This document shows, piece by piece, positions 888 through 63,194 of a DNA stretch of 64,000 nt. Under the pieces are notes generated by a model that did no database searches, was not told where the DNA came from, and saw nothing but the letters and a program-made list of their open reading frames with translations. Made by a program: the position numbers and the translations under genes. Position 1 is the first letter of the stretch. Every line of letters begins with the position of its first letter. Location of the stretch: assembly GCA_951812925.1 (NCBI GenBank), contig OX638371.1, positions 82,531,697 to 82,595,696 of the forward strand, written 5' to 3'. This DNA is from Calliopum simillimum (lineage: Eukaryota; Arthropoda; Insecta; Diptera; Lauxaniidae).

Positions 888-944
888 CCTTTTTCTTTCT
901 TCGGCTCTTGCAGCTCTTCCCTGTTGTAAGCGTAATCTTCTCTT
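888..944 (-). CDS. charged micro-exon, 57 bp (most 3' exon seen)
   Basis: Acceptor ctttatag, donor GTATGTAT. Phase-0 peptide KRRLRLQQGRAARAEERKR: Arg/Glu/Ala rich, probably helical. It resembles the charged exons at 24559, 24709, 15129 and 16080. A second frame is also open, so the phase rests on agreement with the other exons. Confidence 0.6.
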
Positions 945-1299
945 CTATAAAGTAAGTAAATTTTCATTATCTAGAACAGAAACATGACAGCAAAATAATT
1001 TGAAATAAATTTGGCAATATTTTTTTGTACGCTTCCCAAATTCGCACTTTTTTACAGTAAATTTTGTTTAGCGATGAAGCTCATTTCTGTTTTTGGTAGC
1101 TTTCTCAATGTGGAGTGCCTTCTGATGAGATTAGTTCGACAAACTACATCATAAATATGCATCATCAGGCCAAAATTTTAATTTCCAGAATGGAGTTTTT
1201 GAAATGCTTCCTAATTGGCTTTAAATAAAATAATCTTCTTACTAAGAGAAAATGGTCTAATGGTATAGTTTTGTAATTTTAAATCCTCTTTCTCCTATC

Positions 1300-1800
1300 A
1301 CACCTATCTTCAATCAAAAATAATTGTCAAAAATATGCCTAATGAAACGGTTCGCGGCATTTTATTCCAGCCATTTAATAGCTTCGAAATCTGTTCCGAA
1401 TGAAAAACTAGCTGATCGTTTTTTTAAAACATCGAAAAACGGTAGGTACCTACGTTTGAAAGTACTTGTCAACCGAATCCGGTCTCGGAATTGCTCTATC
1501 ATTTTCAGTTTTTGAAATATTCTAACCTAAAAGTTGAAAAACTTGATTTTCGAAATTATATAGAGGACGCCCGATAAACTTCCATGTTTCATTTTAAAGT
1601 GGTCATAGATTTTTCGTGAACGAGAAATTTTTGTTTAGTTGTTTTTTATTCTTCATATGAACCTTATTTAAAAAAAAAAAACGATCAATAAGCATTTCAT
1701 TAAGAACAGATTCTGAAACTATGAAATAGCTGGAATAAGATGTCGTGAATCGTTTCATTAGACATATTTTAGACAATTATTTTTGATTGAAGATGGGTTT
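1300..1800. mobile_element. fold-back MITE
   Basis: The left arm (1303-1400, ccatcttcaatcaaaaat type) reappears inverted at 1705-1797, including the stretch around the Asn-Glu-Thr-like 'taatgaaacg' word. It has no coding capacity. Confidence 0.6.
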
Positions 1801-2226
1801 GTAGTATTCCTAGCGATGCAAATTTTTATGACATATGCAAAGTTTAAAATTTTAAACAGTAAGTCTTCTAGATGTCGTCTTTCATTTGGCGCCTGAACAT
1901 TGAGCCTTATTCACTTGACTTACCAAGAAATAGAGGCATGAGTAGGCATTAGTAGAACCAGGACACAAAAAATCTTAAAAAACTCGTCATTCGAAAATAC
2001 CCACTTTCCCATCTAATTTTATCCAACGCCCAGCCTCTGAAGTCTTCGACAATCAGTTTATTTTTTCTTTTTACCAAGATAATTCCATGAGAATATCCGA
2101 AGTTCTTGATTATGTTAAAAACATAAGAAAAAATAACGTCAAAATCTCGGCAACCAATCTAATACCTAAAGCCCTGATGAACTCTAAGTTATTCCGTGCC
2201 AAAAAGTTCAAATTACATTTTCTTAC

Positions 2227-2280
2227 CTCTTCAGCCTCTTCAGATGACATCCTTAAAAGACCCCTAGAAGAACTCTGCAC
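2227..2280 (-). CDS. Ser/Glu micro-exon, 54 bp
   Basis: Acceptor is a poly-T tract plus tag, donor GTAAGAAAA. Phase-0 peptide VQSSSRGLLRMSSEEAEE. It ends in an acidic Glu/Ala stretch like several other charged exons. Both splice sites are strong. Confidence 0.75.
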
Positions 2281-2625
2281 CTAAAAAAAAAAGCACATGA
2301 AATAATATTATTACTATATTATATCGATGCCTCATACGAAAAGAAGGATGATCATTTGTCCCACGAAAATTAGGACAAGATAAAAATTGTTGAAAAGTAG
2401 GATGTCTCAAACTTTCATATGAAAATAAAATGTTTTATACCTAATGACGAAAAAAAGAGCTTATCATATCACAAACGCTCATGGGTACTTCTTCTGAAAA
2501 GTTAAATGTTTTAAAATTTTTATTTTTTTTTTTTTTCGAATCCTCGTTAAATTTCTTTTAACTTGGCATTACATTTGTTTTACCAATTTTTTTAATTTAA
2601 AGATCAGCAAAAAAAAAGCTATGGT

Positions 2626-3138
2626 ATATGAGGAGTAATCGAACAAAAAGTAACATTTCCATGTTTCCTTTTTTTTCAGAAATCAATAAAATGTGATTAA
2701 AAAAGGTAGCATATTTTTTAAAAAAATATGTTTATGCATAAATATACACTAAAAAAACTGCCTTTGAAATTTCGAAATGTTACCTTTTGGCAGGAAATGT
2801 TGGAAATTTTACTTTTTGATAATCATTAAACTGAAATGATGCCTTGTGGGAGCAATAAAAGCAACTGAAAATGTTCGACGAAGGCTATGATTAGTGATTA
2901 GTATAAAATAGGTAAATGTAATTTTTCGTCAGAACTACAAAAAAATTGTAAGTGGAGTGGAAATGTTACTTTTTGTTCGGAAATCGACGAAAAACGCGGT
3001 TTTCTTGGGAACTGTTATTCTTTGAACCGCCAAATTCTACTGGAATGTGTAGTTCATAGATTTACATACGGTTCTTAAAAAAAAAAGCAAAAAGACAAAA
3101 ACTGGAAATGTTACCTTATGTTCAACTACTCCTCATAT
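2626..3138. mobile_element. TIR element (MITE), about 513 bp
   Basis: Ends ATATGAGGAGTAATCGAAC... and its inverse ...GTTCAACTACTCCTCATAT. Internal words 'ggaaatgtta' and 'aaaagtaaca' recur in both orientations. No open reading frame. Confidence 0.7.
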
Positions 3139-3185
3139 AGAAAAGTATTTTTTCCGACCGTATATGAAGCTACTTTTAAACTAAA

Positions 3186-3432
3186 TATCGAGCCTTAACC
3201 GCCAAAAAGACTCAACGGACAAAATTCAAATTTAATAGTACATAGAAGGTTTTTTTGAATTTCCTTTGCACGCATTGTAGTACCAAAGTCAAAATTGTTT
3301 TCGCTATATCTTCGTAACGGTACTTTTTTCCAGTAATGAAATTTGAAGGGAAGATGCATATGGACGCGAGTTATCGATTTCTATCAAAAAACCGAAATCC
3401 GAAATCTTGTCGGTTAAGTCTAGGGCTCGATA
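3186..3432. mobile_element. small TIR element, about 247 bp
   Basis: Starts TATCGAGCCTTAACCG and ends with the imperfect inverse CGGTTAAGTCTAGGGCTCGATA (interrupted match). No coding capacity. Confidence 0.5.
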
Positions 3433-3434
3433 TT

Positions 3435-3660
3435 ATTAAATAATACTATTGAACTTTTAAAAGTTAAATGAGTTTCCAGCGAATATAAATCCTACATACA
3501 TTAAATATTATTTTATACTAAATTACCTTGCTATCTCTTCTCCTTGACGTATTCATCCTTGGTGGCGTTTTGTACTTTTAAATAAATTTAAATTATAATT
3601 ATTATTTTTTATATAAAAGTATCTAGTAATGATGTATGAATATAAAAGAATAGTTTTTTT
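3435..3660. repeat. exon-bearing duplication, copy 1
   Basis: This segment matches 4401-4622 over almost its full length, about 965 bp apart in direct orientation. It includes the exon at 3527-3574 and its flanking intron sequence ('agcgaatataaatcctac...' on the plus strand). Confidence 0.8.
3527..3574 (-). CDS. TPP micro-exon, duplicated copy 1, 48 bp
   Basis: Acceptor tttaaaag, donor GTAATTTA. Phase-0 peptide YKTPPRMNTSRRRDSK. Its paralogue at 4492-4539 differs at three residues (Lys/Thr at position 2, Ser/Cys and Lys/Gln at the end). Another frame is open too; phase 0 gives a 3n length and a TTPP word shared with 4912. Confidence 0.55.
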
Positions 3661-4077
3661 TTAAATGATTTATGTTGACTATATGGAAATTATACTACAG
3701 CATAAAAAGTTCGTTTTACTACTACTTAGATGGCGTTGCTAATATATATACTGATTTATTGTCATAAATTAGACAGAATGGTACTAGACGTGGATAAAAG
3801 TACTAACGGACAATGCAACACTGATTTAGATACGTACGACAGGATACTAAAGAAAAGGAACGAACAGTAAAAAACAGTCTTTTGGAAAGAGTCGTCATTT
3901 GAGGTCGCAAATGTAGTCGCTAGAGTGCGACTGCATCGAAAACTAATAAGTTGTGTACAGAGCCATTAAATTTATTGTTAAACCGCCAAGCTAAATTGAA
4001 CTATATAAATAATTTAATAAAAAGGGTACTTTCTTAAGCTATCTTTAAACTACATAATATGATATTATCATTAAATA

Positions 4078-4405: not shown

Positions 4406-4622
4406 TAAAACTATTGAAATTTAAAAAGTTATATGAGTTTTCAGCGAATATAAATCCTACATACATTAAATCTTATTTTGTTCTCAAATACCTGGCAATC
4501 TCTTCTCCTTGACGTATTCATCCTTGGTGGCGTTGTGTACTTTAAAATAAATTTAAATTATTATTATTATTTTTTATATAAAAGTATATTGTATGTATGA
4601 ATGTAAAAAATAGTTTTTCTAA
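4401..4622. repeat. exon-bearing duplication, copy 2
   Basis: Direct-repeat partner of 3435-3660, including exon 4492-4539 and its introns. The two copies are close enough to suggest a fairly recent event. Confidence 0.8.
4492..4539 (-). CDS. TPP micro-exon, duplicated copy 2, 48 bp
   Basis: Acceptor ttttaaag, donor GTATTTGAG. Phase-0 peptide YTTPPRMNTSRRRDCQ. The YTTPP start is shared in style with exons at 4912 and 5141. The exon is clearly richer in G+C than the intron around it. Confidence 0.55.
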
Positions 4623-5032: not shown

Positions 5033-5047
5033 TTGGTAATCTTCAAA
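5033..5047 (-). CDS. 15-bp micro-exon (weak)
   Basis: Donor GTAAGTACC is excellent; acceptor gcatatcag. Peptide FEDYQ, resembling the YEDYR start of the exon at 53898. The next upstream AG would give 23 bp, so the boundary was chosen by length. Confidence 0.45.
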
Positions 5048-5140
5048 CTGATATGCTGTTGTATCGTGCTAAGAAAGATAAAGTTCATCATTCTCGAGAA
5101 ATATATCATGAAAAATAATGATTTTGATATCAATACATAC

Positions 5141-5179
5141 ATAACATGGTGGTGGTGTTGTATTTATTATTTGTGAGTA
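5141..5179 (-). CDS. candidate micro-exon, 39 bp
   Basis: Donor GTATGTATTG; peptide YSQIINTTPPPCY in phase 0. The acceptor (ggaagggag) lacks a pyrimidine tract; a better CAG acceptor near 5209 would give 68 bp in a different phase. The downstream intron start matches that of exon 6167, which supports a duplicated donor. Confidence 0.4.
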
Positions 5180-5482
5180 CTCCCTTCCATCCATAGTTGA
5201 TTGATAATCTGATGCAGATGTGGCCTTCAAAAAAAATGCTTATCTACTTATTGAAAAACTTTTATTCACTAAGTTTTAGTGGTGATACTTGTTTTTGCAT
5301 ATTCTTATGCAATCCTGATTTTTTTAAAAAGTCAAATTTTAAAAGGAACCCTATCGGAAATTTGGAAGCCCTCGCATAAAAGCCAAATAAAAATCGCTTT
5401 ACTCTCATTGTCCGATCGAAAGTTTCCAAGCGCTTCCATTAAATCCAAAATTACCTCAAGTATGGCACTATAAGTCTTAGAA

Positions 5483-9451: not shown

Positions 9452-9799
9452 ATCAATATATTTGTCAACAAATTCAACACAATTATCGTCGTTTACACTT
9501 GCAATCGGTTCATCATCCAGAAAGTTAGAAACGATTATCCTCATGTCATCACTTAAGTAAAAAATACTCTGATCTCCGCAATCAAAATCAATGGGATCAT
9601 TGCTGTCATCTAACATGATGTAGTTATCATCTTCTCCTGCATAAGGGATCCTATTATTATCATTACTCTCATCAAACACAAAGTAACTATCATCTGCTCT
9701 TGTTATTGGGATCCTTTCATTAAGTATTTCAATATTATTGCTGTCGTCCAGCAAAATGCAACTGTCAACTGTTTCTGCTTTTGGGAGCGAGCGATTAAC
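9452..9799 (-). CDS. acidic SIM-like repeat exon, 348 bp
   Basis: Acceptor cttccaaag, donor GTAAGGCAT, 116 codons in phase 0. Starts VNRSLPKAE and ends FVDKYID. It contains SCILLDDSNN, SYFVFDESND and NYIMLDDSND, each a short hydrophobic run followed by Asp/Ser, separated by RIPxxxxDD spacers, then the conserved tail (DQSIF ... LDDEPI). Only 58 bp of intron separates it from exon 9858. The protein region is disordered and very acidic. Confidence 0.75.
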
Positions 9800-9857: not shown

Positions 9858-10184
9858 ATTAAGATAGTCATCAATAAATTGGACGCTATCATCGTCGTCC
9901 GCACTACCAATGGGTTCGTCATCCAACATAATGCAACTATCATCCGAAAAGTCAGAAACGTTCATTCTCATATAATCATTGGGATCAAAAATACTCCGAT
10001 CTCTGCGATCAAAATCAAAATCATTGGGATCTTTACTATCGGTATCATTGCTGTCATCTAAGATAATGACACCTTTATCTGCGTCTGCATTTGGGATCCT
10101 GTCATTCATAATTTCAATATCATTGCTGTCGTTTAACACAATGCAACAGTCATCTGTTTCTGCTTTTTGGAACGAGCGATTAAC
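9858..10184 (-). CDS. acidic SIM-like repeat exon, 327 bp
   Basis: Acceptor ttttcaaag, donor GTAAGACAG, 109 codons. Starts VNRSFQKAE, ends FIDDYLN. Three SIM-like cores: CCIVLNDSND, GVIILDDSND and SCIMLDDE. The middle has DPNDFDFDRRDRSIFDPND and the tail DYMRMNVSDFSDDSC. It matches exons 9452, 10719 and those at 41-43 kb. Confidence 0.8.
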
Positions 10185-10718: not shown

Positions 10719-10994
10719 ATCAATATATTCGTCAACAACTTGGACGCTATCATCGTCGACCGTACTTTCAATTGGTTCGTCATCTAACATAATTCAACTG
10801 TCTGAAAAGCCGGAAAAGCCGGAAACGTTCATTCTCATATAATCGCTTGGGTCAAAAATACTCTGATCTCGACGATCAAAATCAAAATCGTTGGGATCTC
10901 GACGATCAAAATCAAAATCGTTGGGATCTTGATCATCACTTTCATCCAATACAATGCAACTATCATCTGCTCCCGCCTTGCATCTCTCCAGCAC
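10719..10994 (-). CDS. acidic exon with an in-frame TGA, 276 bp
   Basis: Acceptor ttcttaag, donor GTAAGGCAT, length 3n. Starts VLERCKAGADDSCIVLDESD, followed by a doubled DPNDFDFDRR unit. A codon is missing and the conserved Cys of SDDSCIMLDD is TGA (near 10793), after a duplicated GFS. It is either a dead copy, an alternative end, or an exon that is skipped, which its 0-0 phase would allow. Confidence 0.7.
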
Positions 10995-11281: not shown

Positions 11282-11317
11282 CCTTTCGCAGGTACCATTT
11301 CCAAATCTGCTGCTCGC
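11282..11317 (-). CDS. micro-exon, 36 bp
   Basis: Acceptor tattatttag, donor GTGAGTTTT. Phase-0 peptide ASSRFGNGTCER. It lies about 290 bp upstream of the second acidic cluster. Confidence 0.75.
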
Positions 11318-15002: not shown

Positions 15003-15032
15003 CTCTGCAATTTTGAGTCTATTTCTTTCAAT
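15003..15032 (-). CDS. charged micro-exon, 30 bp
   Basis: Acceptor aattttatag, donor GTAAATAAA. Phase-0 peptide IERNRLKIAE; a second frame (LKEIDSKLQ) is also open. Confidence 0.65.
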
Positions 15033-15128: not shown

Positions 15129-15161
15129 CTCTTCATCTCTTTTTTGTTTTAGTAAACATCG
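15129..15161 (-). CDS. charged micro-exon, 33 bp
   Basis: Acceptor tcattccacag, donor GTATTTACT. RCLLKQKRDEE; only phase 0 is open. Likely part of a short helical charged segment together with its neighbours. Confidence 0.7.
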
Positions 15162-16079: not shown

Positions 16080-16112
16080 CCGTTCTTCACACTGCCTTTT
16101 GAATGCTTCCGC
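16080..16112 (-). CDS. charged micro-exon, 33 bp
   Basis: Acceptor cttctgttacag, donor GTATTTATA. Peptide AEAFKRQCEER, similar in character to 15129 and 24709. Confidence 0.75.
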
Positions 16113-16915: not shown

Positions 16916-17077
16916 AATCTCCTCTTACATGACCCAGGTTTGAAGAAAAATTTTTTTAAGTGAAATTTTTGGGAATTTTTTGGAAAGTTAAGAAAATGTT
17001 TTTTTTTTTTTCTTTGAATAATTTTTGAAAAAATTCAAAATATTTTTTAACCCTTTCGACCCGGCTGGGACGATATA

Positions 17078-18685
17078 CAGTTGCGGTCAACTAATTAGCA
17101 ACGCAGCGGTGTATTACATTTAATTGTCAATATATCATAATTTTCTGAAGAAACTTTAAAAAATTAATGTCGGTTGATGGTCTTACAATAATTATTTGTT
17201 AAGTACACTTCACTTTATGCAAAAGGAAGCTCCTACTATTTTGTTTTTTAGTATATTGAGTAAGGATTAATAATCTTCTCGGTCATATAATTAACAACGC
17301 TTTGTTTATTTTTAATCAAAGCAACTTTTTATTTAAAAAACATTTAATATTTCGTTGCAAGACCATTATTTATCATAACTGCTTCAGTCCTACGAGCCAT
17401 TGAATCCACTAATTTTCGGCACACAGCATTTGGAATGGCTTCCCATTCCATCTTTACTTTTGCAAATAACTCCAAGAAGTTTCCAACTTTATGCAACTAA
17501 ACTTTTTTTTTTAATTGCTCCCAGAGGTTCTCGATGGGATTGAGGTCTAGGCTGCATGAAGGCCGATCCAATAGTGGGATGTAATTTTACCCCATACACC
17601 GTTTTGTTAACCGCTCAGTATGCTTCGGATCGTTGTCTTGCTGCAGGATGCAAGACACTGGCATGTTTTCATCACAGAATGGAACCATAAGGATAGAAAT
17701 ATACTGTTGCTGATCCATATGGCCCTCAATCTTTGCAATTGGACCAACACCGCGCCACGACATGGATCCCCAGATCATAATATTCCCACCACTATGCTTT
17801 AGTGTAGGACGTGTGTATTTTGGGTCAAATTTCTTTAGTCTAAGATGACGGAAGTAGGTTTTACCATCAGACGAAACTCTTTTATTTTTGGTTTCATCCG
17901 AAAAAAGGACTTTTTTCCATTCTTTTACTGACCAGTGCCTATGTTTCCGGCGAACTGTAACCTTTTCTTTCTGTTCACTTCTAATAGAAGAGGCTTCGTT
18001 CTGGTGTTGGTCCTATTGCAAAGATTGAGGGCCATATGGATCACCACCAGTATATTTCTATCCTTAATGATGTAATGGTTCCATTCTGTGATGAAATCAT
18101 GCCACTGTCTTGGATCCTGCAGCAAGATAACGATCCGAAGCATACCGAGCTGTTAACAAAACGGTGTATGGATGAACATTACATCCCACTATTGGATCGG
18201 CCTTCATGCAGCCTAGACCTCAATTCCATCGCGAACCTCTGGGAGCAATTAAAAAAAAAAGTTCAGTTGCATAAAGTTGGAAACTTCTTGGAGTTATTTG
18301 CAAAAGTAAAGATGGAATGGGAAGCCATTCCAAATGCTGTGTGCCGAAAATTAGTGGATTCAATGGCTCGTAGGACTGAAGCAGTTATGAGAAATAATGG
18401 ATTTGCAATGAAATATTAAATGTTTTTTAAATAAAAAGTTGCTTTGATTAAAAATAAACAGAGCGTTGTTAATTATATGACCGAGAGGATTATTAAGCCT
18501 TACTCAATATACTAAAAATCAAAATAGTAGGGGCTTCCTTTTGCATAAAGTGAAGTGTACTTAACAAATAATTATTGTAAGACCATGAACCGATATAAAG
18601 TTTTTAAAGTTTCTTCAGAAAATTATGATATATTGACAAATAAATGTAATACACCGCTGCGTTGCTAATTAGTTGACCGCAACTG
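17078..18685. mobile_element. Tc1-like element, head-to-head palindrome of two transposase halves
   Basis: Ends CAGTTGCGGTCAACTAATTA and its inverse, flanked by TA. The left half (to about 18000) codes on the minus strand and the right half (18010-18420) on the plus strand for the same C-terminal part of a Tc1 transposase: QQDNDPKHTE catalytic motif, then RPSCSLDLNSIANLW, matching the PDLNPIENLW signature with changes. The N-terminal DNA-binding part is missing from both, so it is inactive. Minus-half reading frames are interrupted. Confidence 0.9.
18036..18419 (+). pseudogene. Tc1 transposase C-terminal part (right half)
   Basis: 127 codons ending TAA, beginning in the DDE region (ISILNDVMVPF), containing DNDPKHTE, DLNSIANLWEQL and the C-terminal RRTEAVMRNNG. 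About a third of the normal 340-residue transposase. Its near-copy is on the minus strand at 17380-17800. Confidence 0.85.
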
Positions 18686-18929
18686 TATCCCAAAAAAATT
18701 TTAATAAGCAAAACTGTTTAAAATGAATTTACATACATATAAAGTAATTTTAAACAATTTTGCTTATTCAAATTTTTTTGGAATGTATTGCCCCAGTCAG
18801 GGTTAAGTTTAAAAAATTTTGGTGAAAAAAATTTTTTTTCAATTTTTTAAAAAAAAATTTTTTCAAAAACTATTAAAAAAAGTTTAAAAAAATTTCAAAA
18901 AAATTCACACATATTTCTTGATCGATTCT

Positions 18930-19330: not shown

Positions 19331-19987
19331 TTAATTCAGAAACTTTGGTCAAAGCTATAAATTTTTGAAAAAACACCCTTTTCATGAAAATGACTCAAAA
19401 CGTCAACTTCAACAGCCTGTACTTAAACAACAAATGGTACTAGAACCCAATAATTTATTTTTTGAGGTCTTACCCTTCTTCAGAGCACTATTAAAATGAG
19501 CCAGTTCACAAAACTATAGTTTTGCTTGAAACAAAAAATTAAAATTTTTTTTTTTTTTTTTTCAATAAATAAGAAGTAATGTTAGCACAACTAACATAGT
19601 TTAAGAAACAAATTTAACTACCACAATTTGAAAAATATTTAAAAAATTTTCTGTTTAAGATACTTTTTTAAAATTTTCTAGTGGTCTGCTTTCAAAAGTT
19701 AAAATTTTGAAAAATACATTAGATGGGGAATATTTCAAAAAATATTGAACGCACAGATTTATTTTTGAACTCACTCTGGAATTTATAAAGCAACGTTGAA
19801 CTTAGTTCTATTTAACACAAAATTTACTGTTTGTCACTTGTACCCCTTTGCTTTTTACCTCCTCATATATATACGAAACAAAAGAAATAGGCCTAATGTC
19901 CTATCCATTTTTTGCGTAGGAAACAACAGTTAAATCACATACCAGAATCATACAAGAGTTTCACAGATAATTTTTTGATGTATGTAC

Positions 19988-20629
19988 CTCTTTCCTGCGG
20001 TCGAATTTTGTTGACCAACCCTGTTCAGCTGCTGATGGAATTGATGGTCGGCAAGCTTGTAACCTTGGTGTTGCACAATTTGGTGATCTTGTTCGCGGAG
20101 CATCCAATATTCTTGGTGCTACACAAGGTGATGACCTCGTTGGTCGTGTTATTGATATTCTTGGTGCTGCACAAGTGGATGACGTTGGCCGTGAAAATGA
20201 TGGCTTTTGGGCTGCAAGTCGTTCTGGTGTCGGTTGTGTAATTGTTATCATTGGTGGTCGACAAGGTGATGACCTTGTTGGTGATTTTACTGATATTCTT
20301 GGGACTGCACAAGTGGATGACGTTGGTCGTGTAAATGATGTCCTCGATGATGGCGCAGCACAAGCGGCTGACGTTGTTGGCCGTGTAAATGACCTTGGTG
20401 CTGAACAAGTGGATGACGCTGTTGGCCGTACAATTGATGTCCTCGATGATGGCGCAGCACAAGCGGCTGCCGTTCTTGGCCGTCCAATTGATGTCCTTGA
20501 TGATGGTGCAGCACAAGCGGCTGGCGTTCTTGACCGTCCAATTGATGTCCTCGATGATGGTGCAGCACAAGCGGCTGGCGTTCTTGGCCGTGTAAATGAT
20601 TCCCTTGGAGCTGGTGCTGCACAAGTTTG
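19988..20629 (-). CDS. Cys/Ala/Pro/Thr repeat exon, 642 bp
   Basis: Acceptor poly-T plus atag, donor GTACATAC, 214 codons in phase 0. Starts QTCAAPAPRESFTRPRTP and goes through about a dozen units of the type TPAACAAPSSRTSIGRP (near 18 residues, 54 bp), later degenerating to STCAAPRISITRP, ending AAEQGWSTKFDRRKE. Each unit carries one Cys, which could form disulfides or be modified; Ser/Thr/Pro richness is mucin-like. Other frames on both strands are open because of the repeat, but only this one fits the splice sites and phase of the array. Confidence 0.7.
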
Positions 20630-21906: not shown

Positions 21907-21945
21907 CTGATTAACCTGATTAATTATCTGATTGATTCGTGCACA
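21907..21945 (-). CDS. micro-exon, 39 bp
   Basis: Acceptor atttttttttag, donor GTAATTATA. Peptide CARINQIINQVNQ. It shares its TGTGCA start and the GTAATTAT donor with exon 25930, so the two look paralogous; this copy may have gained an internal (ATNAATCAG)n-like expansion. Confidence 0.65.
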
Positions 21946-22836: not shown

Positions 22837-22878
22837 CCTTATTGTCCTCCTTTCTATTTGGTATAAGGGCTTTGCCGC
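22837..22878 (-). CDS. basic micro-exon, 42 bp
   Basis: Acceptor taacattctag, donor GTAAGTAAA. Peptide AAKPLYQIERRTIR. Confidence 0.8.
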
Positions 22879-24558: not shown

Positions 24559-24591
24559 CTCTGCAGCTTCTTGTGCTCTTCTTTCCATTAT
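24559..24591 (-). CDS. charged micro-exon, 33 bp
   Basis: Acceptor atttaacag, donor GTAGCTATA. IMERRAQEAAE, close in style to 24709 and 16080; probably a helical Arg/Glu/Ala module. Confidence 0.75.
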
Positions 24592-25929: not shown

Positions 25930-25953
25930 CTGTTCTCCCGTGTTTTGTGCACA
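25930..25953 (-). CDS. micro-exon, 24 bp
   Basis: Acceptor poly-T plus gcag, donor GTAATTATC. Peptide CAQNTGEQ; paralogue of exon 21907 by start and donor. Confidence 0.75.
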
Positions 25954-25989: not shown

Positions 25990-26353
25990 GGCGTTAGGAA
26001 ATAACGCCCAAGGAAATAACGCCCAAAAAAAAAACGAAATAACGCCCAAATTATTTTCATATAAATTTGGGCGATAATCATTTTGGAAATAACGCCCAAA
26101 AATTTGGGCTTTATTTCGTTTTTTTTGGGCGTTATTTCATTTTTTAAAAAAAAAACGAAATAACGCCCAAAAAAATACGAAATAACGCCCAAAAAATTAA
26201 ATGACGTAATAACGCCCAAAATAAAAAACGAAATAACGCCCAAAAAAATGAAATAACACCCAAAATCAAAAACGAAATAACGTCATTTTATTTTTGGGCG
26301 TTATTTCGTTTTTTTTTTGGGCGTTATTTCCTTGGGCGTTATTTCCTAACGCC
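25990..26353. mobile_element. MITE with 9-bp target duplication and repeated ends, 364 bp
   Basis: Flanked by ATTAATTGA on both sides. Ends GGCGTTAGGAAATAACGCCC and its exact inverse. The word AATAACGCCCAA is present about a dozen times in both orientations. A 9-bp duplication fits Mutator-like (MULE) elements. Confidence 0.85.
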
Positions 26354-27266: not shown

Positions 27267-27341
27267 CACAGAAGGTCTAGCTGTAGATACCCTTGTATAA
27301 GGATAAGTTCCACCACGATAAGGCTGAGAATTTGGACTTGC
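27267..27341 (-). CDS. Tyr/Pro/Ser micro-exon, 75 bp
   Basis: Acceptor gatatatcag, donor GTAAGTGTT. 25 codons: ASPNSQPYRGGTYPYTR then VSTARPSV. Confidence 0.8.
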
Positions 27342-32439: not shown

Positions 32440-32466
32440 AGGATTTTCACATTCTTCTTCCCATCG
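32440..32466 (-). CDS. acidic micro-exon, 27 bp
   Basis: Acceptor ttcaaatatag, donor GTAAGTAAA. Peptide RWEEECENP. Confidence 0.75.
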
Positions 32467-34214: not shown

Positions 34215-34238
34215 ATCATACTCAATCCCCATGTCAGG
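34215..34238 (-). CDS. micro-exon, 24 bp
   Basis: Acceptor aatattttcag, donor GTAAGCTTT. Peptide PDMGIEYD. Confidence 0.75.
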
Positions 34239-38317: not shown

Positions 38318-38398
38318 ATCATTTCTAAACGTAGTGTCGAGAACATCTTGATTTGGATTCCAATCAATTTCAAATGAGTCGTCAAAAGGACAGCTTCC
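38318..38398 (-). CDS. CPFDD micro-exon, 81 bp
   Basis: Acceptor tttaaaatag, donor GTGAGTTGT. 27 codons: GSCPFDDSFEIDWNPNQD then VLDTTFRND. Confidence 0.8.
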
Positions 38399-39775: not shown

Positions 39776-39826
39776 CTGTGCGGGTCCTCCTGATAATAGT
39801 CTTGCTGGTGCAATAGGTGATGTTAT
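39776..39826 (-). CDS. micro-exon, 51 bp
   Basis: Acceptor taaataacag, donor GTAAGATAA. Peptide ITSPIAPARLLSGGPAQ. Confidence 0.8.
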
Positions 39827-40982: not shown

Positions 40983-41027
40983 TAGCGATCTTGTTTCATT
41001 GTTCGATGGCACGATTCCAGAGTTCTC
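40983..41027 (-). CDS. micro-exon, 45 bp
   Basis: Acceptor ttcattaaaag after a T tract, donor GTAAGTTAT. Peptide ENSGIVPSNNETRSL. Confidence 0.65.
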
Positions 41028-41396: not shown

Positions 41397-41900
41397 ATCA
41401 ATATATTTGTGAACAAATTTAAAGAAATCCCTTCCAATCGGTTCATCATCTGAAAAGCCGGAAGCGTTCATTCTATTATAATCACTTTGGTCAGCAATAC
41501 TCTGATCTCTGCGATCAGAATCAATGAGATTATTGCTGTCATCTGCTCTTGCTTTTGGGATCATGCCATTTTTCTTTTCACTGTCATCTCCTTTTGCTTC
41601 TGGGATCCTGGTTTTTTTCTTTTCAATATCATTGCTGTCAATGTCACTGTCATCTGCTCTTGCTTCTGGGATCCTGTCATTTTTCTTTTCAATATCATTG
41701 CTGCCAATGCCACTGACATCTGCTCTTACTTTTGGGATCCTGTCTGTTTTCTTTTCAACATCATTGCTGTCATCTAACTCAACGCAACTACCATCTGCTG
41801 TTGCTTTCGGGATCCTGTCTTTATTCTTGTCAATATCATTGCTGTCGTCCAATATAATGCCACTGTCATCCGCTTCTGCCTTTGTGAACGAGTTATCAAC
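41397..41900 (-). CDS. acidic repeat exon (NDIEKK type), 504 bp
   Basis: Acceptor ctttccaaag, donor GTAAGGATC, 168 codons in phase 0 starting VDNSFTKAEADDSGIILDDS. Then about five 22-23-residue units of the form SNDIEKKNDRIPEARADDS. Ends KFVHKYID. Two SIM-like cores (SGIILDDSND, SCVELDDSND) remain; in the other units the core is degenerate. Confidence 0.75.
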
Positions 41901-41958: not shown

Positions 41959-42186
41959 ATTAAAATAGTCATCAAAAAATTGGACGCTATCATCGTCGTC
42001 CGCACTTCCAGTCGGTTCGTCATCCAACATAATGCAACTATCATCCGATAAGCCAGAAACGTTCATTCTCATATAATTGCTGGGGTCAAAATCAAAATCA
42101 TTGGGATCTTCATTATCAGTACCAATGCTGTCATCTAAGATAATGCCACTATCATCTGCTTTTGCATTTGGGAACGAGCGATCAAC
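41959..42186 (-). CDS. acidic SIM-like exon, 228 bp
   Basis: Acceptor ctttccaaag, donor GTAAGGCTT, 76 codons: VDRSFPNAKADDSGIILDDS, DPNDFDFDPSNYMRMNVSG, SCIMLDDEPTGSADDDD, ending FFDDYFN. Introns of 58 and 62 bp on either side. This is the shortest intact version of the unit. Confidence 0.8.
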
Positions 42187-42248: not shown

Positions 42249-42893
42249 ATCAATATATTCGTCAACAAATTGGACGCTACGATCGCCGTTCGCACTTCTA
42301 ATCGGTTTGTCATCCACAGATTGGACGATATCATCGTTGTCCGCACTTCCAATCGGTTCGTCATCCAACATAATGCAACTATCATCTGAAAATCCGGAAA
42401 CGTTCATTCTCATATAATCGTTTGGGTCAAAAATACTCTGATCTTGACGATCAAAATCAAAATCATTAGGATCTTCATCATCACAATCATCCAATACAAT
42501 AGAACTATCATCTGCTCCTGACTTGCGCCTCTCCAGCACCTCTCGACGATCGAAATCAAAATCATTAGAATCTTCATCATCACTATCATCCACTACAATA
42601 ACACTATCATCTGCTCCCGATTTGCGTCTCTCCAGCACCTCTCGACGATCGAAATCAAAATCATTAGAATCTTCATCATCATTATCATCCAGCACCTCTC
42701 GACGATCGAAGTCAAAATCATTAGAATCTTCATCATCACTATCATCCGATGTAATAATACTATCATCTGCTCCCGCCTTGTGTCTCTCCAACTCCTCTCG
42801 ACGGTCAAAATCAATATCATTAGAATCTTCATCATCACTGTCATCCAATGCAATGACAATATCATCTGCTCCCCCCTTGCATCTCTCCAGCAC
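42249..42893 (-). CDS. acidic SIM-like repeat exon with 99-bp repeats, 645 bp
   Basis: Acceptor ctttctcaag, donor GTAAGGCAT, 215 codons. A 33-residue unit (VLERRKSGADDSVIVVDDSD, then DEDSNDFDFDRRE) recurs four to five times at exact 99-bp spacing, one copy shortened to VLDDNDDED. SIM-like cores: IVIALDDSDDED, SIITSDDSDDED, SVIVVDDSDDED, SSIVLDDCDDED, SCIMLDDE. The tail follows the common pattern: DQSIFDPNDYMRMNVSGF, then FVDEYID. Very acidic and disordered, with basic RR/RRK spacers. Confidence 0.8.
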
Positions 42894-47740: not shown

Positions 47741-47764
47741 CTGCGATAATTTCAAGTCGGGTTC
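47741..47764 (-). CDS. EPDL micro-exon, 24 bp
   Basis: Acceptor poly-T plus gcag, donor GTATTTAAA. Peptide EPDLKLSQ. Tandem duplicate of the first half of exon 47849 (EPDLEISQ); the intron between repeats as well. Confidence 0.8.
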
Positions 47765-47848: not shown

Positions 47849-47899
47849 CTGGACTTTTTTATACGCATCTAGATATTGCGATATTTCAAGATCGGGTTC
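47849..47899 (-). CDS. EPDL micro-exon, 51 bp
   Basis: Acceptor poly-T plus gcag, donor GTATTAAAA. Peptide EPDLEISQYLDAYKKVQ. Confidence 0.8.
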
Positions 47900-48008: not shown

Positions 48009-48071
48009 CTGCGGTTTTGTTTTTCGCTCCTGGAAATTAACCCTTTTTGGTTTACTTTGTGCGAGTTCATT
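48009..48071 (-). CDS. basic micro-exon, 63 bp
   Basis: Acceptor tttatttaag, donor GTAAGTATT. 21 codons: NELAQSKPKRVNFQE then RKTKPQ. Confidence 0.75.
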
Positions 48072-48241: not shown

Positions 48242-48256
48242 TGAGCTGAGATTTAG
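48242..48256 (-). CDS. micro-exon, 15 bp
   Basis: Acceptor ctttttcag, donor GTAAGTACA. Peptide LNLSS. One of the smallest exons with strong sites on both sides. Confidence 0.65.
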
Positions 48257-48381: not shown

Positions 48382-48492
48382 CCTAGTGCCTCCGCTAATA
48401 GTTCTGGGCAATGATGTAAGCGACATAATTGGCATTGGTGGGGATCTTCGATGCTGCATTATAGCTCCACATGAAGCATTACGAAAAATATT
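48382..48492 (-). CDS. exon, 111 bp
   Basis: Acceptor ttaatctacag, donor GTAAGATAT. 37 codons: NIFRNASCGAIMQHRRS, PPMPIMSLTSLPRTISGGTR. Confidence 0.8.
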
Positions 48493-50382: not shown

Positions 50383-50415
50383 TGTAGCAGATTCTTCTCC
50401 AGCTCTGTTTCTGTC
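50383..50415 (-). CDS. micro-exon, 33 bp
   Basis: Acceptor ctatttaacag, donor GTGAGTATT. Peptide DRNRAGEESAT. Confidence 0.75.
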
Positions 50416-52779: not shown

Positions 52780-52821
52780 CACTGGTGATCCACAGCGTGC
52801 ACAACTTGGCCCTGCCTGTGC
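52780..52821 (-). CDS. CxxC micro-exon, 42 bp
   Basis: Acceptor atatttcag, donor GTATTTATG. Peptide AQAGPSCARCGSPV. CARC is a possible half of a zinc-binding site, but no partner pair is nearby in the exon. Confidence 0.75.
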
Positions 52822-53734: not shown

Positions 53735-53800
53735 TTTTGCCGCAAGTATTTCATCTCTTTCACGTATAAAGTCTTCAACATCAGCATTAATATCGGAGAT
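53735..53800 (-). CDS. acidic helical micro-exon, 66 bp
   Basis: Acceptor catttccag, donor GTAAGTAGA. 22 codons: ISDINADVEDFIRERDE then ILAAK; looks like a short coiled-coil segment. Confidence 0.8.
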
Positions 53801-53897: not shown

Positions 53898-53933
53898 CAG
53901 TCTATTAAGCTGTTGTAATCTATAGTCTTCATA
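53898..53933 (-). CDS. micro-exon, 36 bp
   Basis: Acceptor ttttttccag, donor GTAAGTTGA. Peptide YEDYRLQQLNRL. Confidence 0.8.
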
Positions 53934-55450: not shown

Positions 55451-55576
55451 CGTTTGATAAGCTGGAGGCGGCGATCTAGCTGGTGCAGGTGGGGCAGGTG
55501 ATACATAAGGATCGCAATCTTCATAATTTGGAGGAGGTGAATAAGAAGGAGGTGGTGACATTTCACGGCGAATATT
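55451..55576 (-). CDS. proline-rich PPxY exon, 126 bp
   Basis: Acceptor ttttttgctag, donor GTAAGTGTA. 42 codons: NIRREMSPPPSYSPPPNYED, CDPYVSPAPPAPARS, PPPAYQT. Three PPxY motifs (PPSY, PPNY, PPAY), known ligands of WW domains such as those of Nedd4-type ligases and Yorkie. Partners here are unknown. Confidence 0.85.
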
Positions 55577-56475: not shown

Positions 56476-56507
<32 letters not shown>

Positions 56508-58058: not shown

Positions 58059-58079
58059 TACCCATCGTATTCTACTTAC

Positions 58080-58265: not shown

Positions 58266-58295
58266 GCCACTCGCCATATCAGCTATTTCCTGTTC
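58266..58295 (-). CDS. micro-exon, 30 bp
   Basis: Acceptor ttatatttcag, donor GTAAGTAGT. Peptide EQEIADMASG. Confidence 0.8.
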
Positions 58296-59213: not shown

Positions 59214-59264
59214 AATATCTCTAGCATTATTTCCCTGAGGTGGTGCAGCAGCCGGTTCTTGAAC
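59214..59264 (-). CDS. Ala/Pro micro-exon, 51 bp
   Basis: Acceptor ttatttttag, donor GTAAGTACA. Peptide VQEPAAAPPQGNNARDI. Confidence 0.8.
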
Positions 59265-59525: not shown

Positions 59526-60565
59526 AAGTCTTTGTTCAAAATATTTTTTCGTTTTCGGTTGGTTTCTTTCATATTATCGAAGACTTCTGGCAAACAAATG
59601 ATCGTATACCATCCTTAATTTAAGGTTAGGGCTGCAAACCGGTTTTGAACAGAACCATTTAAGCATGATGATGGCAACGGTATTCTTAGATTGGAAATAT
59701 CCCTTTTTTGCAAAATCATTCCCCAATTTAAATGCAGTTTTGGGATTTATGTTTCATTGATTTTTTTAATTAATTATCCCGTACCCAAACCATGGCTCAG
59801 ATTCATTATAAAACCGATTCTTTGACCAGTACAAGTTTTCATTAAATGATTCGAAACACTCAACCGAATCGCATCGATTTTTGAAGCGGTATGCAGACCT
59901 ATTAATGGTCTTTTAGGTTTCAAAAGTGTCAGTAGCCACATGACCGGTTTTCGTGAAAAAAACTTCACCATTTACTACGCATCGCTCCTACGTCGCACAA
60001 GTTATGTTTGATTTTCTTCGAATGAAAAAACACTAACAGTCAATTGGTTTTTTGTTTCAGGTTCAGACGCAAAAATCCAAGATCCATCACCTATGGCAAT
60101 AGTGAAGACGTTTTTGGAAGAAACTCCGATGAATTTTTTAAGCTGTTGAAGGCACAATTTTTGGGCATCTGATAACACTAGTTTACAGCCAAAATTCCCA
60201 TTGAATGCCATTATTCATTTTATATGTAAAATGAGCTGCTGGTTCCGAAAATCGCATTTTTTTTTTCTTTCGTGTCGTTTTCGAGATATCGGTCATTTTC
60301 GGTTTTCGAACCAAAAAAAAAGATAGTTCCACTTAAATACAAAAAAATTTTTAATCATTTGTAAACTAGTGTAATTTATGTGGAGTCCAACGCGTTCATG
60401 CAAGATTGTTTGCTAATCATGTTTAGGCACTAAACATCCCTCGTTTCTCTACAGATAACATGACGATCTTCTTCAATTAATTTTTGCACAGTAAAGGAGT
60501 TTTCTGGCACAACAGCTGTTTTCGAGTGGGTCATCTTTTTTGCTACTTGTTACAAAAGTTATACA

Positions 60566-61360
60566 GTAGGGGAAGGTAACCGGCTGTGGGCCGTTACCGA
60601 TTGTGGGCCACCCCTTGTATTTTTAGAAGCTTATAAAATATGACAGATCTGAGTATGAGGTTATGTGTACATTGACAATAGACAGTATTAATGCAAACAC
60701 TGAAGTGAAAGGACGCATCTGACCCGCAGCTACAACAAAACAAAAAAAATTTACAAAGAAATTTTCAATAAAGAAATTTCTGAAGATTTTGCGAGTGTGA
60801 TAAAGCGAAGTAAAATATTGCAAAGAGGTGAGTGGTATGCATTTTTATGCAGTATTTGTGTTAAATTTTCCGATTTTGTATCGAGTTTGCTCAAAATTTT
60901 TCGCCACGAGAATTTTGCCAGTCACTTAAGGGATGGCTGCCGTTACCGGTTGTGGGCCACCATGTTTTTTGCATGAAAATTATTGCAAATCAATGTTCCT
61001 CGCACCAATTTGCAGCGAATTCGATCAAATGCAAGGTTGGCTGCGATCGGCTAGTGCATTTGAAATGCGCTGCTATAAAAAAGAGCTATTATACATGCAA
61101 AAATTGCGAATCCGATGATTTGAAGAAGCCACATTTTCTTGATGTTTTTGCACCACTAGAGGCTTCATTGATAAATAAATTTTGATAATACATATTTCTT
61201 TACTGGTTTTTTTTCATAATTTTGCATTTGAAGTGGATTTTTTTTTTGTCAAAAAACAAGCTTTTTACAAAATTTGTTAAAAAAATTGTTTTGTTACTTA
61301 CTGCCTCTAGCTTTCCATGGTACCCACAAGGCCGGCTCACAACCGGTTACCTCCCGCTAT
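60566..61360. mobile_element. TIR element with a zinc-finger fragment, about 795 bp
   Basis: Ends GTAGGGGAAGGTAACCGGCT-like and inverse 'aaccggttacctcccgct'. The word 'gttaccggttgtgggccacc' repeats inside (60590, 60940). See the ORF fragment at 61003-61185. Confidence 0.75.
61003..61185 (+). pseudogene. PHD-like zinc-finger fragment in a TIR element
   Basis: The reading frame contains KCKVGCDRLVHLKC, then YYTCKNCES, giving C-x3-C-x4-H-x2-C-x9-C-x2-C, the second half of a PHD-type finger, and ends in TAA after SLINKF. PHD fingers occur in some DNA-transposon proteins. No transposase remains, and the first Cys pair is not clear. Confidence 0.55.
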
Positions 61361-61516
61361 TAATAAAAACAAGTTATGATTTTGCGCATCTCTGGGCCTA
61401 CGTAAGCCGTGTTTCATACAAATTTTAAATTTTGTTAACGAGACTGGAAAGTTTTCGAGGTTTACGTGTTTTCAAAGGCTTTTACGTGTTAAAAGAAATC
61501 AACTTATTATACTTAC

Positions 61517-61570
61517 TGGACTTTCGTCAAATAACTGTCTCCGAACTGGATGAGCATCGTCATCATCAAT
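61517..61570 (-). CDS. acidic micro-exon, 54 bp
   Basis: Acceptor cttttatttag, donor GTAAGTATA. Peptide IDDDDAHPVRRQLFDESP. Confidence 0.8.
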
Positions 61571-61663
61571 CTAAATAAAAGACATCAAATGTTAATCGAA
61601 AACAAAGAAAAAAGATCGAAAAGGACCTACTTATCAACTTTTTTTTTGTTTTTTTTTTTGATA

Positions 61664-62570
61664 TAGGGTAAGGGAGGGAAATATGGACCACCCATCTTTC
61701 TTTTTAAAATAAAACCCAAAATACATAAAACAAAACAATTAATTTTATGTCATTCAGTAAAGGAAACAATTTACCTTTATTCTGATTCACTTTTAGATAA
61801 ATATCTCATCAGGATAAAGAAAAAAAATTAAAAAACTGAAAATACTCAAAATGAAGATAAAAAAAAGTGTAGTGTTATATGGACTATATAGTCCATATTG
61901 CCCCACATGTTTATTTGGTACAGAAGTTGCATATAAAAATGTCACTTCCACATTCGGCACATTTTTCATGACTCCAAGAACGTCGGATTACACATTCAAC
62001 CCAAAATTCGCCACGTCGATCTTCTGAGTAAAGGGTATTACATTATATGCATTTTTTATCATTTTTTTCCTTTGTAGTTAACGAATTACATATAATGACC
62101 ATCAGACTCGTCATGAAAACTGCAACTAGATTCCCCATCTAAAAAAGATGATAAATACATTTGTTTTTGAGGCTTTTTTCTTTGGTGGTCCATATTACCC
62201 ACAGCACGTGTTGGTGAAATAAATGGTCTTTTTATCAAAAACCCTTTTGGTTCATGAACTTATTTGTGCTAATAAATTATAAATGGTATTCACTGACTTC
62301 ATATAATTAACCATTTATTTAAAAACGCGATGTCTTTAAAGTGAAATAATGAAATATACTCACTAGAAAAAAATTATCACTGATCTTTTTTTTAGAAAAA
62401 TCAATTTTACAGAAACATGCGGCTTCACCGAACGCTAAAATCGCCCTATTATAAGCTTTAGGTATTAGCGTTAAGTTTGAACATGAATAACGGTAGATCC
62501 TATGTATGCAGTGGGAAATAACCGTGTGGTCGATATTACCAACGTAGTCCATATTTCCCTCCCTTACCCT
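61664..62570. mobile_element. TIR element, about 905 bp
   Basis: Ends TAGGGTAAGGGAGGGAAATA and inverse 'tatttccctcccttacccta'. The words 'tatggac'/'gtccata' repeat inside (a perfect 'tatggactatatagtccata' near 61878). No transposase. Confidence 0.85.
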
Positions 62571-62923
62571 ACTTATTATTTCAGAAACCGGCTTCCAAGA
62601 ATACAATTTCAAGGAGAAGAAAATTCTTTTAGATAAGAAACTATCAGCGTGTATACGTTTTTAAATATGGGAGAAGGGGGTTTCGACACCCTAACAAGAA
62701 AGTCCTTATATCTTCCATATGCAATTGTGAATTATTTTGAATACACACAGACTATGCACGAATATGTGTGCTTCTTTTGTAAATTACAATAAATTCTATA
62801 TGTTTGCTATTTTCGGAACTGTGACCAAAAAACCATAGTTAAAATAAATGACGAAACCTCCCACTTTTGTATCCAATCCTTTGGTTTACCTACTCCACCA
62901 ATGTATTTCCAATTTATACTTAC

Positions 62924-62971
62924 AATTCTCTGCCTACCGCGAGGTTGTATTACAGGTGAATATCCAGCACT
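62924..62971 (-). CDS. micro-exon, 48 bp
   Basis: Acceptor ttttttactcag, donor GTAAGTATA. Peptide SAGYSPVIQPRGRQRI. Confidence 0.8.
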
Positions 62972-63122
62972 CTGAGTAAAAAAACAAAATTAATGAAGGA
63001 AACAAATAAAAAGCTACTTATTACATGGCTCGTCACAAAAAAAAAAATAAACACTTGAGAAAATCCAAAAAATTCTTAACAACTTTGAGCCAACTGTTTT
63101 TATTTATTTAACCATAACTTAC

Positions 63123-63194
63123 CGAATCTAGGTAAGAAGAAACATCAGAAGGAATATGTTCCTCTTCAATTCCTGGGACAGGTATACGTATCCT
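63123..63194 (-). CDS. micro-exon, 72 bp (most 5' seen)
   Basis: Acceptor atttacttcag, donor GTAAGTTAT. 24 codons: RIRIPVPGIEEEHIPSDV then SSYLDS; only phase 0 is open. Nothing clear upstream in the last 800 bp. Confidence 0.8.

Follow-up and report, generated by a model that had tools for sequence, protein, structure and literature searches.

A minus-strand array of short symmetric exons and candidate SUMO-protease tails in a lauxaniid-like fly

SUMO proteases of the SENP6/SENP7 type and yeast Ulp2 have a C-terminal catalytic domain with His, Asp and Cys and a long N-terminal arm, and SENP6/7 carry SUMO-interacting motifs (SIMs). The predicted fly unit described here has the same layout, with SIM-like motifs, but its arm would be encoded by dozens of phase-0 exons of 15-126 nt over about 100 kb (for the unit of the window), and its end exon is found in tandem copies. 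To our knowledge, there is no SENP gene with a micro-exon-encoded arm and tandem end exons. Small phase-0 exons encoding a disordered Pro/Gln-rich protein are a likeness between the fly array and vertebrate SCPP genes such as the caseins, but SCPP proteins are secreted, have far fewer exons and lack an enzyme domain.

Published micro-exon families, as far as found, encode secreted proteins of parasites or aphids. In the excerpted description (PMC9168663), the bicycle and megacycle genes of aphids share with the fly array numerous single-phase micro-exons, long genes and internal duplication, bicycle genes also fast evolution, and the megacycle gene of M. sacchari has 118 exons within about 100 kb. 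The same excerpts place the exon start of bicycle genes at codon position 2, whereas it is codon position 1 in the fly array, and give megacycle a secretion signal; none was found in the fly array, where the true first exon was not located. The hosts named there are aphids, phylloxerids and coccids, in contrast to a fly with a SUMO-protease end. Schistosome micro-exon genes (MEGs), as covered by portions of PMC5825161 and PMC10526429, resemble the fly array in their short symmetric exons, and alternative-splicing variants have been proposed for them. Their exons are 6-36 bp (up to 81 bp), and their products are secreted with signal peptides, the longest having 189 residues. At 42 nt, the median fly micro-exon is longer than MEG exons usually are.

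The fly array seems to share such an architecture, in a different phase and a different insect order, and to supply an enzyme of the SUMO system with its targeting arm. Should transcripts confirm this, micro-exon arrays would be a more general route to fast-evolving disordered regions, and the conserved terminal enzyme would reveal the purpose of the array. Annotation pipelines easily miss such genes.

The exon array in the window and its flanks

The window is the whole stretch of 64 kb that was analysed, and together with 280 kb of flanks 344 kb were read in all. The array of minus-strand exon-like segments continues throughout, neither end being reached, and strong (0,0) candidates were present, at least one per block, in 25 of the 27 blocks of 10 kb scanned (the last of 4 kb). 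The bounds 888..63194 proposed in the first-pass annotation are therefore not those of the array, which goes on beyond both sides of the window. The host, correctly taken for an insect in that annotation, is a lauxaniid-like fly judging by COX1, which is 98% identical to two Lauxaniidae and at most 97% to other flies.

The window resembles the interior of a giant gene split into dozens of tiny coding segments. Its final model has 38 exons with 3615 nt between 888 and 63194: 33 exons of 15-126 nt and five acidic exons of 228-645 nt. All five acidic exons and four of the 33 short exons were added by hand. About fifty segments of 15-126 bp with 4.9 kb of coding sequence had been reported earlier; the symmetric exons stand, the count and total are lower here, so that some of those segments were not recovered, and the upper size is exceeded by the acidic exons. 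Although they are 33 of the 38 exons, the short exons make up 43% of the coding bases; over the 344 kb, micro-exons supply 2448 of 3132 residues when the catalytic exons are left out. The segments are listed below in window coordinates (score, splice plus codon run; score2, another scoring run).

63123..63194, minus: micro-exon, phase 0/0, 24 aa; splice plus codon score 18.5
62924..62971, minus: micro-exon, 16 aa; score 16.1
61517..61570, minus: micro-exon, 18 aa; score 13.9
59214..59264, minus: micro-exon, 17 aa; score 26.0
58266..58295, minus: micro-exon, 10 aa; score 19.5
55451..55576, minus: Pro-rich exon, 42 aa, three PPxY motifs; score 53.3
53898..53933, minus: micro-exon, 12 aa; score 13.6
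53735..53800, minus: micro-exon, 22 aa, added by hand; score2 12.0
52780..52821, minus: micro-exon, 14 aa; score 22.2
50383..50415, minus: micro-exon, 11 aa; score 15.7
48382..48492, minus: exon, 37 aa; score 6.9, score2 19.1
48242..48256, minus: weak micro-exon, 5 aa, added by hand; score2 7.0
48009..48029, minus: micro-exon, 7 aa; score 8.2
47849..47899, minus: micro-exon, 17 aa, duplicate of 47741..47764 (block duplication); score 9.6
47741..47764, minus: micro-exon, 8 aa, diverged duplicate of 47849..47899; score 7.1
42249..42893, minus: large acidic exon, 215 aa, four SIM-like motifs, internal 99-bp repeats; edges by eye; dN/dS between copies below 1
41959..42186, minus: acidic exon, 76 aa, two SIM-like motifs; edges by eye
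41397..41900, minus: acidic exon, 168 aa, one SIM-like motif; edges by eye
40983..41027, minus: micro-exon, 15 aa; score 12.8
39776..39826, minus: micro-exon, 17 aa; score 20.1
38318..38398, minus: borderline exon, 27 aa, outside the final 38; score 7.1
34215..34238, minus: micro-exon, 8 aa; score 10.9
32440..32466, minus: micro-exon, 9 aa; score 19.4
27267..27341, minus: micro-exon, 25 aa; score 33.3
25930..25953, minus: micro-exon, 8 aa; score 17.2
24559..24591, minus: micro-exon, 11 aa; score 14.7
22837..22878, minus: micro-exon, 14 aa; score 13.7
21907..21945, minus: micro-exon, 13 aa; score 8.7
16080..16112, minus: micro-exon, 11 aa; score 15.1
15129..15161, minus: micro-exon, 11 aa; score 8.6
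15003..15032, minus: micro-exon, 10 aa, added by hand; score2 12.2
10719..10994, minus: acidic exon copy with one in-frame TGA (broken or skipped copy), outside the final 38
9858..10184, minus: acidic exon, 109 aa, three SIM-like motifs; edges by eye
9452..9799, minus: acidic exon, 116 aa, two to three SIM-like motifs; edges by eye
5141..5224, minus: micro-exon, 28 aa; score 24.4
5033..5068, minus: micro-exon, 12 aa; score 13.1
4492..4539, minus: micro-exon, 16 aa; score 16.1
3527..3574, minus: tandem duplicate of 4492-4539 (218-bp duplication, 89%), 16 aa, added by hand; score2 9.5
2227..2280, minus: micro-exon, 18 aa; score 17.1
888..944, minus: micro-exon, 19 aa, Arg/Glu-rich; score 16.4

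A splice-only model, without codon scores, was trained on 31 window exons hand-picked as having a length divisible by three (3n) and frame 0 open; two of these (11282-11317 and 38318-38398) are absent from the final model. When this model was tested on the 280 kb of flanks, which are separate from the training window, the numbers of candidates, 3n candidates and candidates with frame 0 open were 147/108/94 on the minus strand versus 33/12/4 on the plus strand at score ≥7, 104/79/72 versus 15/6/4 at ≥8, 76/63/57 versus 6/3/1 at ≥9 and 55/47/43 versus 1/0/0 at ≥10. The 63 of 76 minus candidates with 3n length at score ≥9 compare with an expected one third (binomial P = 8e-19). Cross-validation between the window halves, using the splice plus codon model at score ≥8, gave 14 and 16 minus-strand candidates, with phase (0,0) in 9 and 11, versus 2 and 1 on the plus strand, with phase (0,0) in 0 and 1. 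That model favours (0,0) by design because its codon part was trained on phase-0 exons, a bias avoided by the splice-only model, which lacks codon scores and was tested on the other 280 kb. The earlier description of symmetric minus-strand segments, nearly all 3n, is thus confirmed far above chance by held-out data, and its statement that there is no opposite-strand exon set agrees with the few plus-strand candidates in the flanks and in both window halves.

Openness by itself leaves the phase unsettled, since frame 1 is nearly as open as frame 0 in short candidates. Among the minus-strand 3n candidates, frames 0, 1 and 2 were open in 57, 53 and 31 at score ≥9 (n = 63) and in 94, 72 and 42 at score ≥7 (n = 108). 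Phase 0 is assigned from these counts taken together with the long exons, as the acidic exons and the six catalytic exons read are all in phase 0. The array exons would be joined in the mRNA, and skipping of single exons is possible because they are 3n and symmetric.

Rfam and tRNA scans of the window gave nothing, and no Pfam domain exceeded its cut-off in four joined peptides from the window and its two sides. The window peptide had no protein homolog at E ≤ 10 among the 7985 most word-sharing candidates scored, a set probably dominated by the acidic repeats. The first-pass annotation recognised no schistosome or aphid micro-exon family, and we likewise saw no sign of bicycle or schistosome MEG membership.

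Catalytic exons and their link to the array

In the flanks, terminal exons on the minus strand encode Ulp1/SENP (C48) SUMO-protease domains. Eight open catalytic exons lie in tandem on C4 over 0.98 Mb (within 82.43-83.41 Mb), all on the minus strand, and all eight exceed the Pfam cut-off of 20.7 bits for Peptidase_C48 (PF02902), with 85.1 bits (8e-24) for copy A and 86.9 bits (2e-24) for copy B. The catalytic His-Trp, Asp and Gln-x-Asn-x-x-Asp-Cys-Gly are present in all four copies read whole (A, B, C and 83137140), and dN/dS is 0.30-0.56 in the six pairs formed by four of the eight copies. Among PDB sequences, copy A matched SENP7 best (1e-13), then Ulp2 (2e-12) and SENP1 (4e-11); these E-values differ little. 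The catalytic part had no homolog at 1e-3 among 445 scored proteins of about 570-1810 aa. The terminal domain is predicted to cleave SUMO.

In all six catalytic copies with a read start, the open frame begins in phase 0 immediately behind an AG, and residue 87 is the first Met in four of four copies. The full domain therefore cannot begin within the exon and requires coding exons upstream. In three of the six copies (B, 83137140 and 83220809) a phase-0 micro-exon precedes the catalytic exon by 68-72 nt; none was recognised within 130 nt before the catalytic exon in copies A and C. In the splice model, the acceptors of catalytic exons A, B and C receive scores below 0, and the catalytic domain of these copies itself contains stronger AG sites, which are in other phases. 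The window has no catalytic exon of its own; the link to B spans the 41 kb below it, and most simply the window would be the body of a unit ending there.

The window probably forms the body of a single unit, one of a family of tandem genes for SENP6/7-like or Ulp2-like C48 SUMO proteases. In each unit, a long run of short 3n phase-0 exons would be spliced onto a single terminal catalytic exon. The run would encode a long N-terminal arm, predicted to be mostly disordered and rich in Pro, Ser, Ala, Gln, Arg and Glu, which in the unit of the window would include the tandem acidic exons, read as SUMO-interacting motifs. The arm might hold the enzyme on SUMO-carrying or poly-SUMO targets while the terminal domain cuts SUMO off them. 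Since micro-exons that are 3n and symmetric can be duplicated, lost, eroded or skipped without a frameshift, such an arm could evolve fast while the enzyme is conserved. The predicted product of the window's unit is about 1700 aa and probably intracellular. One very large modular minus-strand gene, or tandem copies, had been suggested from the window; the modular unit, perhaps in tandem copies, is retained, and the apparent SUMO-protease ends were missed because they lie outside the window.

A bicycle or megacycle effector was the initial idea and was abandoned in view of the phase, the COX1 of a fly and the catalytic exons. More broadly, a secreted micro-exon or effector gene like the schistosome MEGs or the aphid bicycle and megacycle genes, with the SUMO-protease exons as unrelated neighbours, would account for many 3n exons of 15-126 nt and fast evolution, and its architecture is superficially similar in the excerpts consulted (PMC9168663, PMC5825161). 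This is quite improbable: the host is a fly, the catalytic exons need upstream phase-0 coding exons, and the bicycle-type frame, with exon starts at codon position 2, was closed in 32 of 63 3n candidates (open in 31 of 63 at score ≥9 and 42 of 108 at ≥7). Signal-peptide-like first exons showed no excess in 264 kb (minus 16 versus plus 13; 2 versus 1 at stricter settings), although the true first exon was not found. One signal-peptide-like exon at 1924-2012 is in phase 2 and fits no neighbour found.

C48 peptidases are found in some transposons, and a domesticated or spreading mobile element would agree with the 37 C48 matches in the genome, 10 of which carry internal stops, and with transposon-type ORFs within the array (DUF4817 over the Pfam cut-off, DDE_3 under it). 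However, the eight cluster copies are all open and on the same strand, and the four compared have dN/dS below 1. Two exon families searched in the genome match only inside the array; of 40 scored matches of a third, five cover the exon and lie in the array, whereas 34 others match only the adjoining repeat. We regard this origin as improbable.

Exon evolution and cluster organisation

Purifying selection on the micro-exons was expected beforehand and was not found in the paralogous pairs. In 24 pairs the exons changed as fast as their flanks (109 of 948 versus 360 of 3577 positions), codon positions 1, 2 and 3 had changed in 18, 19 and 11 of 207, and pN/pS was 1.58 in another set of 23 pairs; these values speak against purifying selection on the amino acids, and the paralogs compared showed no protein conservation. 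An apparently higher conservation of micro-exons than of flanks (0.893 versus 0.744) came from the set of 23 pairs, which had been picked by exon identity, whereas the unfiltered 24 pairs showed no difference. That paired exons differ in length by multiples of three follows from how they were paired and was discarded as evidence. The excess of amino-acid changes over silent ones, like the frequent openness of frame 1 in short candidates, would suit chance or non-coding splice-like segments without a product, but this is hardly credible given 3n lengths in 63 of 76 minus versus 3 of 6 plus candidates in the held-out splice-only test and a strand bias across 344 kb.

The whole cluster of about 1 Mb might instead be one transcription unit, with the catalytic exons as alternative 3' ends, each with its own last micro-exon, like other genes that have numerous alternative tails. 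At C4:83.220 Mb, 252 bp separate the stop codon of one catalytic exon from the start of the next, and this gap holds a phase-0 micro-exon of 30 nt and hardly any space for a promoter and an N-terminal array. Members of one exon subfamily flank catalytic exon C on either side (-93 to -109 kb), and searches, also after the terminal exons, found no clear first exon. On the other hand, every tail is closed by a stop codon of its own, and one member of the close pair could be live and the other dead. The remaining tails are separated by about 5, 58, 78, 110, 192 and 537 kb, in most cases wide enough for separate genes. A single unit is possible but somewhat doubtful. It is unlikely, though conceivable, that the locus acts as a combinatorial SUMO protease, with hundreds of phase-0 cassettes and at least eight interchangeable catalytic tails under diversifying selection, for instance through a conflict with selfish DNA or with pathogens. 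Such a locus would have a large isoform repertoire with varied SUMO- or target-binding arms.

In the preferred reading, the acidic exons, with SIM-like motifs of the pattern x-I/V-I/V-L-D-D-S-D, are predicted to bind SUMO. The five in the window contain 12 SIM-like motifs against a shuffle mean of 0.46, or 3 against 0.34 with a stricter pattern; the pattern was devised after the sequence had been seen, and the motif-bearing copies are duplicates of one another. Weak similarities to DUF3734 (21 bits, Pfam cut-off 22) and HlyD_2 (12.2 bits, cut-off 25.1) were taken as chance. The acidic exon at 41959..42186 had four genome matches at E ≤ 0.01 among eight candidates scored, all within the window, and dN/dS was 0.21-0.75 in ten pairs of acidic exons.

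Minus-strand array of short predicted exons

The minus strand of the window (C4:82531697-82595696, C4 being contig OX638371.1 of the 690-Mb genome; coordinates without prefix are those of the window) carries exon-like segments bounded by acceptors and donors, nearly all of a length divisible by three (3n) and open from base one. The array of these segments continues into both flanks, and the region analysed comprises 344 kb (-140000 to 204000). Cross-validation of a splice-plus-codon model between the two window halves yielded 14 and 16 candidates of score >= 8 on the minus strand, and 9/14 and 11/16 began and ended between codons, phase (0,0); the plus strand gave 2 and 1 candidates, with phase (0,0) in 0/2 and 1/1. 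A model of splice sites alone, fitted to 31 exons of the window and applied to the 280 kb outside it, gave 76 minus-strand candidates at score >= 9, 63 of them 3n (binomial P = 8e-19 for the excess) and 57 open in frame 0, versus 6 candidates on the plus strand, 3 of 3n length and 1 open in frame 0. Three further thresholds agreed with this result. The tests are decisive in that the 3n length and the minus-strand bias are real, and the first-pass annotation was borne out on sequence outside the training set both in its minus-strand 3n segments open in one phase and in its statement that no exon set exists on the opposite strand.

The frame signal is less decisive, the segments being so short: the 63 3n candidates were open in frames 0, 1 and 2 in 57, 53 and 31 cases, and the 108 3n minus-strand candidates at score >= 7 in 94, 72 and 42. 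Codon-scored blocks outside the training set had phase 0 in 11/12 and 9/13 minus-strand candidates (score >= 8) and in 9/10 and 13/14 (score >= 7), the matching plus-strand numbers being 0/0, 0/1, 0/2 and 1/3, with codon scores that lean toward phase 0 because they were trained on phase-0 exons. At least one strong phase-0 candidate was present in 25 of 27 ten-kb blocks. The final list over 344 kb holds 169 predicted exons (3132 codons), nine of them added by hand and 38 inside the window; the median exon length is 42 nt in a set of 117 exons. Searches for a clear first exon found none. A strong, unplaced ATG candidate is located at 183826-183963.

Catalytic terminal exons and their probable link to the array

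Terminal exons with a C48 (Ulp1/SENP) SUMO-protease domain, from the ORFs of the flanks (Pfam E-values from a scan of A and B; C assessed by genome search)
68479 to 69297, minus strand: terminal exon A, Pfam 8e-24
-41803 to -41069, minus strand: terminal exon B, Pfam 2e-24
-100394 to -99588, minus strand: terminal exon C, above the search threshold genome-wide

Among proteins of solved structure, A matches SENP7 and Ulp2 best. Copies A, B and C, like a fourth one at C4:83137140, all have the residues His-Trp, Asp and Gln-x-Asn-x-x-Asp-Cys-Gly, and pairwise dN/dS among these four is 0.30-0.56. A genome search with B gave at least 24 matches at 1e-5 (41 candidates scored), including eight open exons, each with a 245-273 aa frame, that all lie on the minus strand between C4:82431377 and C4:83413350, and a ninth match at C4:58692083, 74% identical to B. 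The latter is part of a second, distant C48 group on the minus strand (C4:58692083-58713160). No protein relatives of the catalytic part were found at 1e-3 among 445 candidates of about 570-1810 aa.

The catalytic frame begins in phase 0 directly after AG in all six copies whose start was read (A, B, C, 83137140, 83219816 and 83214757), and the first Met is residue 87, within the domain, in 4/4 copies, so that an upstream phase-0 coding exon is needed. Upstream, on that strand, stand phase-0 micro-exons: one of 36 nt, 72 nt before B; one of 27 nt, 72 nt before 83137140; and one of 30 nt, 68 nt before C4:83219816-83220538, all three followed by similar intron starts. No recognisable micro-exon was found in the 130 nt before A and C, and 83214757 has a longer Pro-rich frame in its place. 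The splice model rates the acceptors of all three exons A, B and C below 0, and stronger AG sites in other phases are found inside their catalytic domains. The array and the catalytic exon probably belong to one unit, joined by predicted splicing.

The window is placed between A (upstream) and B (downstream) and would most simply be the body of the unit ending in B, with 57 predicted exons and 1473 codons plus 245 across at most 110 kb, at a median gap of 1.3 kb between exons. We consider it likely that this unit is a member of a tandem family of SENP6/7- or Ulp2-like SUMO-protease genes, a reading in which confidence is reduced by the weak acceptors and by frame 1 being open nearly as often as frame 0. 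The catalytic exons may, however, be alternative ends of one larger unit. At 83.220 Mb, within C4:83219816-83221528, only 252 bp separate the stop codon of the upstream catalytic exon (83220809-83221528) from the next one (83219816-83220538); both are open, and the gap contains a micro-exon and hardly space for a gene start, so that here at least the terminal cassette itself was duplicated. Against a single larger unit, the remaining gaps are about 5, 58, 78, 110, 192 and 537 kb, and most of them suit the separate genes of a tandem family.

Composition and divergence of the predicted arm

The micro-exons (2448 residues) are rich in Pro, Ser, Ala, Gln, Arg and Glu; Lys makes up 1.4% and bulky hydrophobics 17% of them, compared with 8.6% and 38% in the three catalytic exons. 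This composition is partly produced by the codon-scored selection of the list. In 24 non-redundant paralog pairs, differences amount to 109/948 in exons and 360/3577 in flanks, and no protein-level conservation was found in this comparison. In ungapped pairs, 18, 19 and 11 of 207 sites are changed at codon positions 1, 2 and 3, and pN/pS is 1.58 in a separate set of 23 pairs. This divergence is in keeping with a disordered arm whose evolution is relaxed or diversifying; splice sites, frame and 3n length, rather than protein conservation, are therefore the basis for the coding status of the micro-exons. No protein relatives of the window peptide were found at E <= 10 among 7985 word-sharing candidates scored, which are probably dominated by acidic repeats.

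Acidic exons of the window
9.3-11.1 kb and 41.3-43.0 kb: tandem clusters of larger acidic exons, introns of about 60 nt
10719-10994, minus strand: further acidic exon copy with an in-frame stop

A short hydrophobic-acidic pattern, defined only after the acidic exons had been seen, matches 12 times in the five open acidic exons (shuffled mean 0.46, maximum 4 in 2000), and a stricter pattern for SUMO-interacting motifs (SIMs) matches 3 times against 0.34 in shuffled sequence. These motifs look like SIMs, and SUMO binding is putative; acidic and phosphorylatable residues typically flank the SIM core (PMC12751080, PMC12295420). Acidic exon pairs (n=10) have dN/dS 0.21-0.75, and the in-frame stop of the further copy could be tolerable if a 3n cassette is droppable. 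With one acidic exon as query, at least 4 genome matches at E <= 0.01 were found (8 candidates scored), all in the window; another exon family of the array has 9 matches, every one on the minus strand of C4:82696467-82745220. A 222-aa frame rich in Pro, Ala, Ser, Arg and Thr (19964-20629, minus strand), with 54-bp tandem repeats and a strong acceptor in front (score 7.0), gave no Pfam match and is perhaps a further large exon.

Comparison with known genes, host and neighbouring loci

Micro-exon architecture is common to the array, the aphid bicycle and megacycle genes (PMC9168663) and the schistosome MEGs (PMC5825161, PMC10526429); the array is set apart from them by its phase or by its exon size, by its host and, where testable, by secretion. 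A literature search for such an architecture with SUMO proteases gave nothing of this kind by title among the matches listed. The proposed unit would combine a known enzyme family with a known type of gene structure, a pairing for which we know of no earlier description.

The COX1 gene that the same assembly carries on its 16-kb contig C334 shows 98% identity to Pachycerina decemlineata and Homoneura picta, both Lauxaniidae, followed by other flies at 97% and below; judged by this gene, the host is a lauxaniid or a near relative among the flies. The whole assembly has 8 COX1 matches, some bacterial-looking. Those besides C334 are on contigs C211, C219, C326, C50 and C58 and at C2:2557671 and C2:74772964: the two on the chromosome-size C2 look like nuclear mitochondrial copies, three are without stops in the standard code and bacterial-looking, perhaps from symbionts, and two have 10 TGA each.

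Within the array upstream of A, a Myb/SANT-like DNA-binding frame (102188-102601, minus strand; PF13873, 1.6e-19) may be a nested gene, a mobile element remnant or part of the array's own gene. An inverted pair of stretches, 94% alike, is found at 17075-18688, and the frame in its plus-strand member matches the DDE_3 transposase below threshold; the pair recurs at 104074-105686. At 25996-26347 a GGGCGTTATTTC-type repeat occurs densely in both direct and inverted orientation.
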